Below are positions 4,807 to 23,632 of a stretch of 37,588 nucleotides of DNA, piece by piece. Position 1 is the stretch's first letter; each line of letters starts with the position of its first letter. Below the pieces are notes generated by a model. That model did not search any database. It was given only the letters and a program-made list of their open reading frames with translations, and was not told the origin of the DNA. The stretch is from a virus: IMG/VR virus record IMGVR_UViG_3300005096_000107, positions 1 through 37,588 of that record; one strand, 5' to 3'. The position numbers were made by a program, and so were the translations under genes.

Positions 4807-5310
4807 ATGGAAATATACAAAGACCCCATAATTAAAAAATATATAGACCTTATCCAAAGCGTGGTTGGAATGAGTTTTTTTAAGGGCGTATATTATGGCG
4901 ACCCGATAAGAGTACCAGTCAGCAATTTGCCGGCGCTTATAATTTCAAAGGACGAAACACGAGTAAGCAATTTAACAAACGCAGACGACGAACACTTAAT
5001 CGCGCTTACCCTAACAGTAATTACAGACATTCGCGCGGACATACAGGACGACAAATCAATTGCACCCGGAACAGCGACGCTTTATGACATCATGGAAGGA
5101 AGAGAAAGCGCCACATTGAAATTAAAAGCAAAATCGCTTTTACATATTTTGAGAAATAATTTAAGCGTCGATACTGCCCTCGGTTTGAGAACAGACCTTG
5201 GAAGTATTACACGCGTGGATTATGGAATGACAGTTGGAAAACGAGAACAAGAAGCGTGGGCAATAGAAGCTCAATTAGAATTTATCGCACATTTTACCCA
5301 ATTGAGATAA
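4807..5310 (+). CDS. Tail terminator / minor tail protein
   Basis: A 167-residue protein. The pattern of a short helix, a NLPALIISKDETRVS segment, a strand LTVITDIRAD, a long helix (LKLKAKSLLHILRNNL) and a final strand AIEAQLEFIAHF fits the fold of phage tail terminator or tail-completion proteins, which close the tail tube and bind the head connector. Its place between the gpG-like gene and the tail tube gene supports this. An HNH gene has been inserted just downstream. No close family name can be assigned by eye. Confidence 0.65.
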   Translation: MEIYKDPIIKKYIDLIQSVVGMSFFKGVYYGDPIRVPVSNLPALIISKDETRVSNLTNADDEHLIALTLTVITDIRADIQDDKSIAPGTATLYDIMEGRESATLKLKAKSLLHILRNNLSVDTALGLRTDLGSITRVDYGMTVGKREQEAWAIEAQLEFIAHFTQLR

Positions 5311-6021: not shown

Positions 6022-7002
6022 ATGGCAAAAACAGGCGGAAGACAAGTAAATATTGGACTAGGTATCGAGTCAGCAGCCGGAACAGCTGTTGCGGAAACAA
6101 TCTTTTTACCATGGACAGGTTTTAGCGTTCAAGCAATCGCAGAAAAAGAGTTGTTTAATTCAGCGCGAGGCATAAGAAATATGGCCTCCAACTCAATGAT
6201 AAAGCGTAAATATGCGCAAGGTTCGATCAGCGCAGTAGCAAATGTAGCAAACGCTCCATACTTCTTTGGTATGGCGCTTGGAACGGTTGCAACAACAGGC
6301 CCGGTAGACAGCGCGTACGAGCATACTTGCACAGTACAAAATATAAACGCGTCAATGAAGACGGCAACGCTAACGATTGAAGATGGCGCAATACAAACAG
6401 CGCAATATACGAATGTTGTTTGCGACAGTTTAAATCTTGAAGTTTCAGACGGATACGCTTCGATCACAATGGAAGTTATCGGACAATTTGTGACAACAGA
6501 TACAATTTCAGAAAGCTACACGGAAGAAACAGAATTTGCGTATCACAACATGACGATTAAATTTGGGACTTCGGTATCGAACGCTTCAAGCCAAAGCGCA
6601 ACACCGATTAAAAGTTTCAGTTTAAACATTGCAAATAATGTTCAACTTGACGAAGCATTTTTGAGCGGAGCAAATACAATTATAAGCGGAGGACTTATTG
6701 CCGGGTCAATGCAAATTACCGGTTCATATTCGTTACATTTTGAAGACACAACAGAACTTGCAAAATACAAAGCGAACACAAAAAACGCAGCCGTCATTCA
6801 ATTTACCGGCGCAACAATCGGCTCGGCAGAAAGCGAGGAAATAAGAATTAACCTTGCAAAACTTGTATTAACAAGCCCCCCGGTCGAGTACAACATTGAC
6901 GGGCTATTGGTGCTTAACCAAGAGTTTGAAGTGGAGTACGGAGCAACAGACAGTGAAATAAGCGTCGTTGTAACGAACGAAGACGCAGGAAGCAATTATT
7001 AA
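6022..7002 (+). CDS. Major tail (tail tube) protein
   Basis: A 326-residue protein rich in beta-strand, Thr, Ala and Gly, with the start MAKTGGRQVNIGLGIESAAGTA typical of phage tail tube proteins. It then has a long beta region with alternating polar and hydrophobic residues (LNLEVSDGYASITMEVIGQF) and a C-terminal LVLTSPPVEYN segment. Tail tube subunits stack as hexameric rings around the tape measure. The position directly before the G/GT chaperone genes and the tape measure is the standard siphovirus order. The C-terminal region may include an added Ig-like domain. Confidence 0.82.
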   Translation: MAKTGGRQVNIGLGIESAAGTAVAETIFLPWTGFSVQAIAEKELFNSARGIRNMASNSMIKRKYAQGSISAVANVANAPYFFGMALGTVATTGPVDSAYEHTCTVQNINASMKTATLTIEDGAIQTAQYTNVVCDSLNLEVSDGYASITMEVIGQFVTTDTISESYTEETEFAYHNMTIKFGTSVSNASSQSATPIKSFSLNIANNVQLDEAFLSGANTIISGGLIAGSMQITGSYSLHFEDTTELAKYKANTKNAAVIQFTGATIGSAESEEIRINLAKLVLTSPPVEYNIDGLLVLNQEFEVEYGATDSEISVVVTNEDAGSNY

Positions 7003-7022
7003 AATTAACTATTTAAAAAAAC

Positions 7023-7364
7023 ATGAGTGAAAATATAAGAGATACAAAAGAACTTAAAATCGGAATACATACAATCATAGTAAATACCTATATTACAGGA
7101 AGAGAATTGCGCAACATTGAAAGCGCGATGATGGACAAATTGGAAATGAGCCAAAAAGACGGCACGCAAGAAATTACCGGCTTCAAAGGTAGTATGTTGT
7201 CAGATCGACAAGATATGCAAATTAAAGCCGTTGTCGTTTCAGTTGACGGAGTAACAGAAAATATTATTGACGCGGTGCTTGATTTGCCGGCAACAGAGAG
7301 CGAGCAAATAATGGATTATGTAAGAACACTTACAGAGCCAAAAAAAGAACAGGCCGACAACTAA
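7023..7364 (+). CDS. Tail assembly chaperone (gpG-type, lambda)
   Basis: A 113-residue, mainly helical and acidic protein between tail tube and tape measure, the position of the G chaperone of lambda-like tails. The coding sequence ends shortly after a CC-AAAAAAA-G run at 7338-7347, which lets a fraction of ribosomes shift into the -1 frame and make a longer GT protein. The short form is thought to coat the tape measure during tail assembly. Identification rests on position, size and frameshift site. Confidence 0.8.
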   Translation: MSENIRDTKELKIGIHTIIVNTYITGRELRNIESAMMDKLEMSQKDGTQEITGFKGSMLSDRQDMQIKAVVVSVDGVTENIIDAVLDLPATESEQIMDYVRTLTEPKKEQADN

Positions 7365-7558
7365 AAGCCATTACCGATTACATAGACGGTAAGTTGTCCG
7401 GCGATATGGTAATTATAGAAGTTTGTCAGATTTTCTCATGGGATTTTTATACTTACCTTGCTCAACCTTCATGGTTTCTTGATTTGATTATTGAGAAAAT
7501 GAAGATCGACGCAAAAAAATCAGAAGCGGAATTTAAAAAATCAAGGCAAACAAAATAA
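7023..7558 (+). CDS. Tail assembly chaperone GT fusion by -1 frameshift
   Basis: The zero frame reads CCA AAA AAA GAA at 7338-7349. A slip of one base back on the heptamer A AAA AAA (7340-7346) continues as AGA ACA GGC CGA and stays open to a TAA at 7556-7558, giving a fusion of about 178 residues. The added 70 residues include ITDYIDG, a Trp/Phe-rich stretch (FSWDFYTYLAQPSWF) and a basic helix. The extension has no independent start near its beginning; an internal ATG lies at about 7404. Its distance to the tape measure ATG is 6 bases. This matches the lambda G/GT arrangement, in which the T part recruits tail tube protein. Confidence 0.8.
7340..7346 (+). other. Slippery heptamer A AAA AAA for -1 frameshift
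   Basis: Seven consecutive A, phased as A AAA AAA in the zero frame and followed by G, form a standard -1 slippage site. The zero frame stops at 7362-7364 and the -1 frame is open for 70 further codons. The +1 frame closes within about 15 codons. Confidence 0.8.
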
Positions 7559-13916: not shown

Positions 13917-13948
13917 GATTTAACCCTTATTATAAGCCATTTGGCAGG

Positions 13949-13957
13949 TTATCCACA
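13949..13957 (+). promoter_or_regulatory. DnaA box, perfect consensus
   Basis: TTATCCACA, the high-affinity bacterial DnaA box. It is located 17 bases upstream of a -35 box in a noncoding region. The same box and spacing recur at 15525. Confidence 0.7.
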
Positions 13958-13974
13958 GTTTTAACTCATAACGC

Positions 13975-14003
13975 TTGACAACAAATCACAACAAGCATAA
14001 ACT
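13975..14003 (+). promoter_or_regulatory. Early-region promoter with consensus -35
   Basis: TTGACA (13975-13980), 17-bp spacer, TAAACT (13998-14003). It lies 17 bases after a DnaA box and faces the early genes. The first recognised start is ATG 14092. An AGGAG motif near 14018 is not followed by a clear gene. Confidence 0.65.
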
Positions 14004-14091
14004 AAAGATAATCAAGAAGGAGTAAGCGCGCACATTAAAAACTCAACACACACTCCCCCATTATCAATTAAAAAAAAGAGCAAATAAAAAC

Positions 14092-15510: not shown

Positions 15511-15524
15511 CAGTAATAAAAAAG

Positions 15525-15533
15525 TTATCCACA
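15525..15533 (+). promoter_or_regulatory. DnaA box, perfect consensus
   Basis: TTATCCACA, 17 bases upstream of the -35 of the next promoter. The whole stretch from box to -10 is similar base by base to 13949-14003. Confidence 0.7.
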
Positions 15534-15550
15534 GGTTTAGAACATAACAC

Positions 15551-15585
15551 TTCACAACTAAACACAACTAGGATATAATAACAAT
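15551..15585 (+). promoter_or_regulatory. Leaderless promoter with near-consensus boxes
   Basis: TTCACA (15551-15556), 17 bp, TATAAT (15574-15579), and exactly six bases to ATG 15586. It is the best sigma-70-type promoter in the window. Confidence 0.82.
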
Positions 15586-15843
15586 ATGACAAAGAAAGAA
15601 GAAGAAAAGTTTATCGAGCCAAATAAATGGTATACATTAAGCGAAATGGTCGGAGCGCGTTTATTTCATTGGTGTAAAGATATTGCGACTTATAGGCGCT
15701 TTATCCTTGCAGACAGAGAAGCGCGCAACTTGCTTAAAACCGTAATTATTGGAGAAGGTCGGCAGAGCAAATATCAGATTAAAGGGAAGAATATTATTAA
15801 CTACTTGGTAAATGTCGAGGACGGCACATATCAAATTAAATAA
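15586..15843 (+). CDS. Small helix-turn-helix / excisionase-like protein
   Basis: An 85-residue protein. WYTLSEMVGARLF followed by ATYRRFILADREARNLLKTVIIG and a GRQSKYQIKGKNIINYL segment has the order of MerR/excisionase-type small DNA-binding proteins: two helices, a wing strand with Tyr-x-Ile, and a last helix. It is a candidate early regulator and is first in a unit driven by a strong DnaA-box-linked leaderless promoter. The family call is by pattern only. Confidence 0.6.
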   Translation: MTKKEEEKFIEPNKWYTLSEMVGARLFHWCKDIATYRRFILADREARNLLKTVIIGEGRQSKYQIKGKNIINYLVNVEDGTYQIK

Positions 15844-22993: not shown

Positions 22994-23014
22994 ATAGGTA
23001 TAGAGTATACCTAT
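22994..23014. promoter_or_regulatory. Palindrome, operator or attenuator candidate
   Basis: ATAGGTATA-GAG-TATACCTAT, a 9-bp perfect inverted repeat with a 3-base loop, starting one base after the previous stop. Its high A/T content makes it a poor terminator and a better protein-binding operator. Confidence 0.45.
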
Positions 23015-23103: not shown

Positions 23104-23220
23104 ATAATACATTCAATACTGGGAAAGGGTAATGTGGCGGTGTTTTAATATACACTGGTCAATTAACGACCCGACGAGAAAAATCACATAACCACTCGTC
23201 CCCGGTATTGAGTGTATTAT
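23104..23220 (+). ncRNA. Tandem structured RNA, copy 1
   Basis: A long closing helix P1 (23104-23123 with 23201-23220, 20 bp with two G-U pairs) encloses a hairpin P2 (CGGTGT 23138-23143 with ACACTG 23152-23157), a short helix (GTC 23158-23160 with GAC 23168-23170) and hairpin P4 (GACGAG 23173-23178 with CTCGTC 23195-23200), which abuts P1. The loop of P4 contains AATCACATAA and the P1-P2 joint contains TGTGGCGG; TGTG (23133-23136) can pair with CACA (23185-23188) as a pseudoknot. Copy 2 has the same parts in the same order, with compensatory changes. No known family recognised. Confidence 0.75.
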
Positions 23221-23221
23221 A

Positions 23222-23332
23222 CATTCAATGCTTGGAAAACGGTATTGTGGCGGTGGTATAATTTTTTCATTGGTTATTCATAAGCCGGGCAAAAACAATC
23301 ACATAATGTTTTGTCCCAAGCATTGAGCGCAT
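23222..23332 (+). ncRNA. Tandem structured RNA, copy 2
   Basis: The same fold as copy 1. P1 core is TCAATGCTTGG (23225-23235) with CCAAGCATTGA (23316-23326), a perfect 11 bp; P2 is CGGTG (23251-23255) with CATTG (23268-23272), two G-U pairs; P4 is GGCAAAA (23288-23294) with TTTTGTC (23309-23315), again directly beside P1. The unpaired blocks TGTGGCGGTG and AATCACATAA are kept, and TGTG (23246-23249) with CACA (23300-23303) is possible. It ends about 19 bases before the Shine-Dalgarno of the next gene, so it may form part of the 5' leader of that gene. A TATAAT at 23257-23262 inside is probably fortuitous. Confidence 0.75.
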
Positions 23333-23350
23333 AAGCACTCAAATCAAAGT

Positions 23351-23360
23351 AAAGGAGGTG
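23351..23360 (+). promoter_or_regulatory. Full Shine-Dalgarno site of the 23366 gene
   Basis: AAAGGAGGTG with five bases to ATG 23366, close to the anti-Shine-Dalgarno complement. Most genes in the window have only A-rich upstream stretches, so this site is exceptional and shows that the phage uses SD initiation for this gene. Confidence 0.8.
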
Positions 23361-23365
23361 TCGCC

Positions 23366-23632
23366 ATGTTTTGTTATATGTGTTTGACAGATTGCGAACA
23401 GTTGTACAAAACGAAAGGCGAAGAAATTGTACTTTGCAAAAGTTGTTTGGCAGAAGCTCGATCATACTTTATCGTAAAATGCGAAAAATGCAGCGCGGTA
23501 GGTATGCTCGATAAAACCAGCGCAAACGAAAGATTATTGAAAAGAGGTGGAATAAATTGGAATGAAAAAGCGGAGGTTGTAATATTCCACACAAATAGTT
23601 GTTGTAATTGCGTTGGCACAGGTTGGGCGTAA
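23366..23632 (+). CDS. Zinc-binding protein downstream of the tandem RNA
   Basis: An 88-residue protein with CYMCLTDC, CKSC, CEKC and CCNCVGTG, four Cys pairs, so probably two zinc sites. The last is DnaJ-like. It contains no catalytic motif. It is the only gene with a full Shine-Dalgarno and a leader of more than 100 bases, which holds the tandem RNA, so it could be controlled by it. A hairpin (GGGAGT/ACTCCC) follows. Function unknown. Confidence 0.75.
   Translation: MFCYMCLTDCEQLYKTKGEEIVLCKSCLAEARSYFIVKCEKCSAVGMLDKTSANERLLKRGGINWNEKAEVVIFHTNSCCNCVGTGWA

Follow-up and report, generated by a model that had tools for sequence, protein, structure and literature searches.

A covarying, pseudoknotted RNA family of uncultured phages and its probable role in phage gene control

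The tandem RNA pair and the genome around it

The DNA analysed here (the window, 37,588 nucleotides) carries an identical direct repeat of 91 bp at its two ends and, within its 37.6 kb, genes for portal, terminase, head protease and tail tape-measure proteins. Those genes that could be identified are all on the + strand. The window is a tailed-phage genome, complete or near-complete, stored as a virus record. Many of its gene starts have no Shine-Dalgarno sequence and show TATAAT-like boxes about 6-20 nt before the ATG (e.g. the starts at 4807, 5328, 15586, 18322, 29036 and 31449), and from these boxes the phage appears to use leaderless mRNAs. Set against this habit, the leadered gene at 23366 is exceptional. 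The preliminary description of the locus had singled it out as the one gene with a full Shine-Dalgarno sequence and, among about 55 open reading frames (ORFs) examined, AAAGGAGG indeed precedes this ORF alone. The same description called the gene product zinc-binding. A cysteine-rich ORF with CxxC motifs does stand behind the full Shine-Dalgarno sequence, but it is specific to the window, with no relatives found in Pfam, PHROG or viral_contigs.

Directly upstream of this gene lie two abutting copies of a structured RNA, each about 115 nt long (23104-23220 and 23217-23334). No terminator was found between the pair and the ORF. The elements of the locus are as follows.

23104..23123, +, copy 1, P1 5' strand; pairs with 23201-23220 (MFE and centroid fold)
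23127..23130, +, copy 1, P2 5' strand GGGT; pairs with ACCC at 23169-23172 (fold and family covariation)
23133..23137, +, copy 1, pseudoknot 5' strand TGTGG; pairs with TCACA at 23184-23188 (5 of 5 pairs covary in the family)
23138..23158, +, copy 1, P3 hairpin with base CGG...CTGG; length and sequence vary across the family
23169..23172, +, copy 1, P2 3' strand ACCC (fold)
23173..23200, +, copy 1, P4 hairpin GACGAG/CTCGTC, loop AAAAATCACATAACCA including TCACA at 23184-23188 (fold and covariation)
23201..23220, +, copy 1, P1 3' strand (fold)
23217..23235, +, copy 2, P1 5' strand; pairs with 23316-23334 (inverted repeat I25) and overlaps the P1 end of copy 1
23240..23243, +, copy 2, P2 5' strand CGGT; pairs with GCCG at 23284-23287 (sequence and cmsearch alignment)
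23246..23250, +, copy 2, pseudoknot 5' strand TGTGG; pairs with TCACA at 23299-23303
23251..23273, +, copy 2, P3 hairpin (fold)
23288..23315, +, copy 2, P4 hairpin GGCAAAA/TTTTGTC, loop including TCACA at 23299-23303 (fold and cmsearch alignment)
23316..23334, +, copy 2, P1 3' strand (fold and inverted repeat)
23351-23358, full Shine-Dalgarno sequence AAAGGAGG before the ORF at 23366
23366..23632, +, ORF of 88 aa, cysteine-rich (CxxC motifs)

Compared with dinucleotide shuffles, copy 1 folds far better than expected (z = -7.1) and copy 2 moderately so (z = -2.5). The compensatory changes first read by eye between the two copies hold up throughout. That is, P1 exchanges an A-T for a G-C pair (CAATAC/GTATTG against CAATGC/GCATTG), P4 changes from GACGAG/CTCGTC to GGCAAAA/TTTTGTC, and P2 is kept (GGGT/ACCC against CGGT/GCCG, the latter with one U-G pair). 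P1 reaches beyond these six pairs, with 20 bp in copy 1 and about 17 bp in copy 2, and in both copies the 3' strand of P4 runs directly into it; in other long-P1 members of the family described below, the 5' flank likewise pairs with the stretch immediately 3' of P4. The blocks TGTGGCGGTG and AATCACATAA are identical between the copies and have no other exact occurrence in the window. The TGTG-CACA pseudoknot proposed between them is real and one pair longer (UGUGG/UCACA), joining the P4 loop (which holds AATCACATAA) with TGTGG of the P2/P3 internal loop; it covaries across the family.

Several further sequence features were observed in the window. The two copies might alternatively pair with each other, since the P1 3' arm of the first and the P1 5' arm of the second are complementary (ATTGAGTGTA/TACATTCAAT, within 23201-23235). 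Upstream of the pair are an operator-like perfect palindrome (ATAGGTATA-GAG-TATACCTAT, 22994-23014) and a repeat, TTAAAAAGTAGTC, at about 23023 and 23075. Similar 63-nt intergenic stretches with the DnaA-box-like GTTATCCACAG precede genes at 13948-14010 and 15524-15586.

An RNA family, its fold and its distribution

The original observation of a tandem pair is correct and understates its content, for the pair belongs to a real RNA family. A search with the exact blocks (TGTGGCGGTG-gap-AATCACATAA) returned two further phage contigs, both with the whole architecture. Relaxed patterns gave about 25 genuine contigs and later more than 100, and a pattern with changed pseudoknots gave a further large set among the matches listed. 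Most matches to TGTGGTGG (all except copy 1 at locus L039) were discarded as chance or coding matches, as were L040-L042, L069, L082-L084, L107 and similar loci. With look-alikes removed, the family comprises at least 149 distinct copies; a lack of relatives beyond this phage, which the preliminary description had named as a refutation, does not apply. When 12 sequences from a subgroup other than the window's were used to train a covariance model, the model matched the window at the two copies and nowhere else (E = 3.4e-4 and 5.8e-4) and also recovered the remaining subgroups. Immediate tandem pairs, found in the window, L039 and L203, are the exception rather than the rule among the copies listed.

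The common architecture consists of an optional closing stem P1, P2, a variable hairpin P3, a hairpin P4 and a pseudoknot between the P2/P3 loop and the P4 loop, in the strand order P1 P2 PK P3 P3' P2' P4 PK' P4' P1'. The consensus is roughly NGGU-AW-[UGNNN]-YGG-P3-CUGGUYA-N7-12-NCCN-P4-AA-[NNNCA]-UA(AAA)-P4'. P1 is not universal; it is strong in the window-like subgroup, measures 6 bp in the TGAGAG/CTCTCA subgroup and was undetected in many copies.

Covariation, the other check that had been proposed for the locus, gave a clear answer. Across 83 representatives, 98.4% of base-pair cells can pair, against 30-51% in slid controls with the 3' partners shifted by 1-3 columns. Compensatory changes occur at 15 of the 19 pairs (7/7 in P4, 3/4 in P2 and, in representatives selected by a descriptor that demanded pseudoknot pairing, 5/5 in the pseudoknot). 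Cells changed on both sides number 335 compared with a shuffled mean of 86, a value reached in none of 500 shuffles. Because the descriptor demanded this pairing, the unbiased test of the pseudoknot is a scan with open 5-mers, in which both were left free except that the usual central T plus central A was forbidden. The 5-mers were fully complementary in 91 of the 92 matches listed with a P4 of at least 5 bp, where chance would give about 0.7% with G-U allowed. The variants include TGCGG/CCGCA, TGCGT/GCGCA, TGCAG/CTGCA, CGCGG/TCGCG, TGAGG/TCTCA and TGATG/CATCA, so the pseudoknot is not invariant and its compensatory variants are numerous; the UGUGG/UCACA of the window is a minority form and UGUGG/CCACA is commoner among the matches listed. 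Altogether, the family RNA is a three-way junction (P1, P2/P3 and P4) of about 70-115 nt, locked by a 5-bp pseudoknot, and selection maintains RNA of this fold on the coding strand of phage operons.

Viral contigs host all listed copies except those of L039, whose contig was assigned to a Nanoarchaeota MAG and in which two tandem copies are followed by a homing-endonuclease-like gene. This locus was the one real match when genome_contigs was scanned with a narrow form of the motif, a form that may miss other cellular copies. Broader patterns found nothing in 396 Bacteroidota genomes and, in 371 genomes of the L039 phylum, the L039 contig alone. Blastn with many family members against cultured phages and plasmids returned chance pieces only; the matches in Klebsiella, Vibrio (VnaP, VPMCC14) and LR756502 were rejected since the motif was absent on inspection by eye. 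The preliminary description recognised no known family, and Rfam 15 (4227 models) agrees: the window and 31 other loci gave no gathering-level match at the motif, and permissive filters gave matches there at chance level. No published description was found in open-licence full text. The RNA family is thus previously uncatalogued and almost exclusively viral; the novelty lies in the family, as structured phage RNA is a kind already known. As it is nearly absent from the sampled cellular genomes, it could serve to flag contigs as viral.

Genomic context, terminators and alternative readings

Position is the most regular contextual feature of the family. An upstream stop codon lies within 30 nt before the RNA core in 104 of the 140 copies with an upstream ORF, and the distance peaks sharply at 12-13 nt, although the upstream ORFs (51-456 aa) are unrelated. 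Long-P1 copies, those of the window included, do not follow a stop codon in this way. A pseudoknot shortly past a stop codon is the typical site of a recoding signal, and replication and recombination genes as neighbours would suit a DNA-level element (a hairpin of replication, recombination or packaging). That the family is either of these is highly improbable. Recurrent G-U pairs and unpaired bases conserved on one strand fit RNA better than DNA. Recoding was rejected for want of a frame-extension signal: open frames extend only briefly past the stop (medians of about 18, 15 and 19 codons in the three frames), and the RNA also occurs with no stop codon nearby.

Neighbouring genes were called by script, as were terminators. 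Many of those with an assigned function belong to replication and recombination (exonucleases, exonuclease VIII, Sak4, SSB, Gp2.5, RusA, NinG, dCMP deaminase and DNA polymerase), and neighbour families recur in at most 2 of 56 upstream and 1 of 33 downstream non-redundant proteins. The family has no one downstream gene in common. The preliminary description had offered a tandem aptamer riboswitch or a phage ncRNA as the main options; the structured, covarying and pseudoknotted phage RNA in that reading stands, and an aptamer or riboswitch is one candidate role for it. In the TGAGAG/CTCTCA phages (L005-L033, e.g. L030 and L027), a small hairpin, TTATCGGTAACGATAA, sits right after the RNA/P1 and before the ATGs of differing small ORFs, a pattern that suggests cassette exchange at this site.

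Some copies lie in arrays of untranslated RNAs. The order in L095 is tmRNA, family RNA, tRNA and tRNA-Met; L100 and L149 share these tRNA neighbours, and in L098 a copy lies between tRNAs and apparent RNA modules with a repeated linker. These array copies in L095 and L098 have no obvious single regulated gene, which counts against control in cis. A promoter-like sequence stands between the family RNA and the next unit in L017 and L034, with a manA RNA beyond it. Copies in tRNA/tmRNA arrays and copies ahead of a separate promoter-like sequence argue against a simple one-gene riboswitch. Both settings, together with the inconstant downstream gene, would suit a stand-alone ncRNA cut from polycistronic transcripts and acting in trans on host or phage machinery through protein binding or as a decoy. 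We consider this unlikely, since most copies begin 12-13 nt past a stop, with no space for their own promoter, and the structured core, not free seed segments, contains most of the conserved bases.

The surroundings of these copies hold other features. About 300 nt between the phage tmRNA and the family RNA in L095 (1424-1735, +) are probably structured and have no Rfam match. The L098 array (6500-7500, -) runs from tRNAs into several RNA-like modules including the family RNA, with the repeated linker GAGTCTTTGAAGATT, written GAGTCTTTGA(A)GATT; besides one intact copy, it holds a degenerate one (6588-6501) that retains mainly P4. In L034 (4830-5110, -), three tandem copies of another repeat of 75-90 nt (ACAGAAAGTTTTTTAGG...) follow the family RNA, and beyond them come the promoter-like sequence, the manA RNA and a terminator. 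In L017 (3790-3910, -), a tRNA-like sequence (TTGAGAG...CTCTCAA acceptor) lies between the family RNA and manA; neither ARAGORN nor Rfam at the gathering threshold calls it.

In the 100 nt that follow the RNA, intrinsic terminators on its strand reach 1.98/kb, about 30 times the background of about 0.06/kb at a distance of 1-4 kb; 16 were found among 80 representatives. A gene for a family A DNA polymerase comes next after 35 of the 149 copies listed. In 31 of 32 cases a hairpin of -16 to -32 kcal/mol stands between the RNA and the polymerase ATG, which usually lies 47-75 nt past P4 and often a few nt past the T-run; some of these hairpins have no good T-run. The linked polymerases are 63-96% identical (21 tested). 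They form one clade, so the association represents one lineage and not many independent events. Cultured phages hold no relative of this clade above 30% identity, which fits the absence of the RNA from them.

Enriched terminators and the immediate post-stop position would also be expected of a 3'-UTR element protecting or defining the 3' ends of upstream phage mRNAs, and L269, L274 and L276 each have two copies about 460 nt apart, each behind its own gene. This explanation is very unlikely: the terminator of the polymerase lineage lies so close to the following start codon that little space is left for another promoter and transcription presumably continues, and the long-P1 copies, those of the window among them, follow no stop codon.

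An antiterminator would require the 5' flank to pair with the left arm of the terminator. Such pairing did not exceed background (median p 0.45), and that with the RNA core was weakly above it. A universal role of P1 as antiterminator was rejected on this ground, convincing overlap of P1 and terminator being seen by eye solely in L088 and L170. In these two, the sequence before the RNA (CAGTGGGGAATAA in L088, GTGGGGAT in L170) can pair with the left arm of the pre-polymerase terminator; this resembles a riboswitch antiterminator and is not general in the polymerase lineage.

A self-cleaving ribozyme that processes phage polycistronic RNA would, like theta ribozymes, combine gene-independence, a compact conserved core with a pseudoknot, and placement between genes and inside tRNA arrays. 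This candidate is quite unlikely: HDV-like ribozymes form a nested double pseudoknot, with a strand order other than that of the family RNA, none of the ribozyme families in Rfam matches, and terminator coupling would be unexpected.

Proposed function and comparison with known systems

The family RNA is probably a new control element for phage genes. From its fold and position we infer control in cis over transcription into the next gene, or over translation in the case of the window. That the RNA controls downstream transcription in this way, acting like a riboswitch or like HK022 put, is a proposal whose chances we put at about even. The RNA would be transcribed together with phage genes, typically starting about 12 nt past the upstream stop, and would fold while leaving RNA polymerase; once folded, it would decide elongation through the hairpin or terminator just downstream. 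It could do so in the manner of a riboswitch, as an attenuator gated by a ligand, or in that of put, through action on RNA polymerase itself, and the gene so controlled in one phage lineage would be the family A DNA polymerase. The output in the window may be translational instead, given the strong ribosome-binding site of the downstream gene and the lack of a terminator between. More tentatively, and somewhat short of even, the family may constitute a novel type of RNA switch in uncultured phages, either a riboswitch or an antiterminator that works without protein, by which genome-replication genes, DNA polymerase included, are gated; the window would then have a tandem pair of such switches.

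Each route has features in its favour. The conserved, junction-centred core and the leader architecture of the polymerase genes suit a riboswitch. As in riboswitches, there is a conserved structured core backed by covariation. A terminator or strong hairpin could serve as expression platform in the polymerase lineage, with competing antiterminator pairing by the 5' flank unsupported. The putatively regulated genes show a replication/recombination theme and include one polymerase clade, with no common gene family and with copies in tRNA arrays. The gene-independent context, the coupling to terminators and the occurrence in arrays of untranslated RNAs together speak for an action on RNA polymerase like that of put.

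A compact pseudoknotted RNA found in many uncultured phages, firmly backed by covariation and missing from Rfam, gives direct access to phage gene control that had not been catalogued, and its consensus is specific enough for immediate annotation of the family. Should it indeed gate replication genes, it would be an RNA switch that governs whether the phage genome is copied. Should it act directly on RNA polymerase, it would join the protein-independent antiterminators, of which very few are known.

Among known systems, the manA (RF01745) and wcaG RNAs are orphan riboswitch candidates of marine phages (PMC2864571). The family resembles them as structured RNA of marine phages, and manA lies a few hundred nt away in L017 and L034, but its sequence and fold are different. 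Identity with manA was rejected, as the matches at these two loci are separate downstream elements and not the motif. Theta ribozymes of phages (HDV-like) are reported to lie between genes and in tRNA arrays (PMC10879173). They share with the family a small pseudoknotted RNA, some copies of which adjoin phage tRNA genes; the family differs in strand order, with no nested double pseudoknot, and in that most of its copies are not beside tRNAs. The EAR/epsC motif is a cis-acting processive antiterminator of Bacillales, located in bacterial exopolysaccharide operons. Like the family RNA, it is a structured RNA inside an operon; unlike it, EAR is bacterial, and Rfam gave no match to it at the motif.

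The put RNA of phage HK022 is a processive antiterminator of about 70 nt with two stem-loops near early promoters (PMC9378689). The likeness is considerable: both are phage RNAs of about 70 nt with a cis mode of action (in our case proposed), in operons with terminators ahead of genes, and HK022 has two copies per phage (putL and putR), which may be compared with the pair in the window. A position in cis upstream of terminators in a phage operon is found in a subset of our copies and not in the window. The hallmark of a put-type antiterminator is read-through that needs the beta' zinc-binding domain. In architecture the two part ways, put having two stem-loops, whereas the family RNA is a three-way junction with a covarying pseudoknot that usually follows a stop codon.
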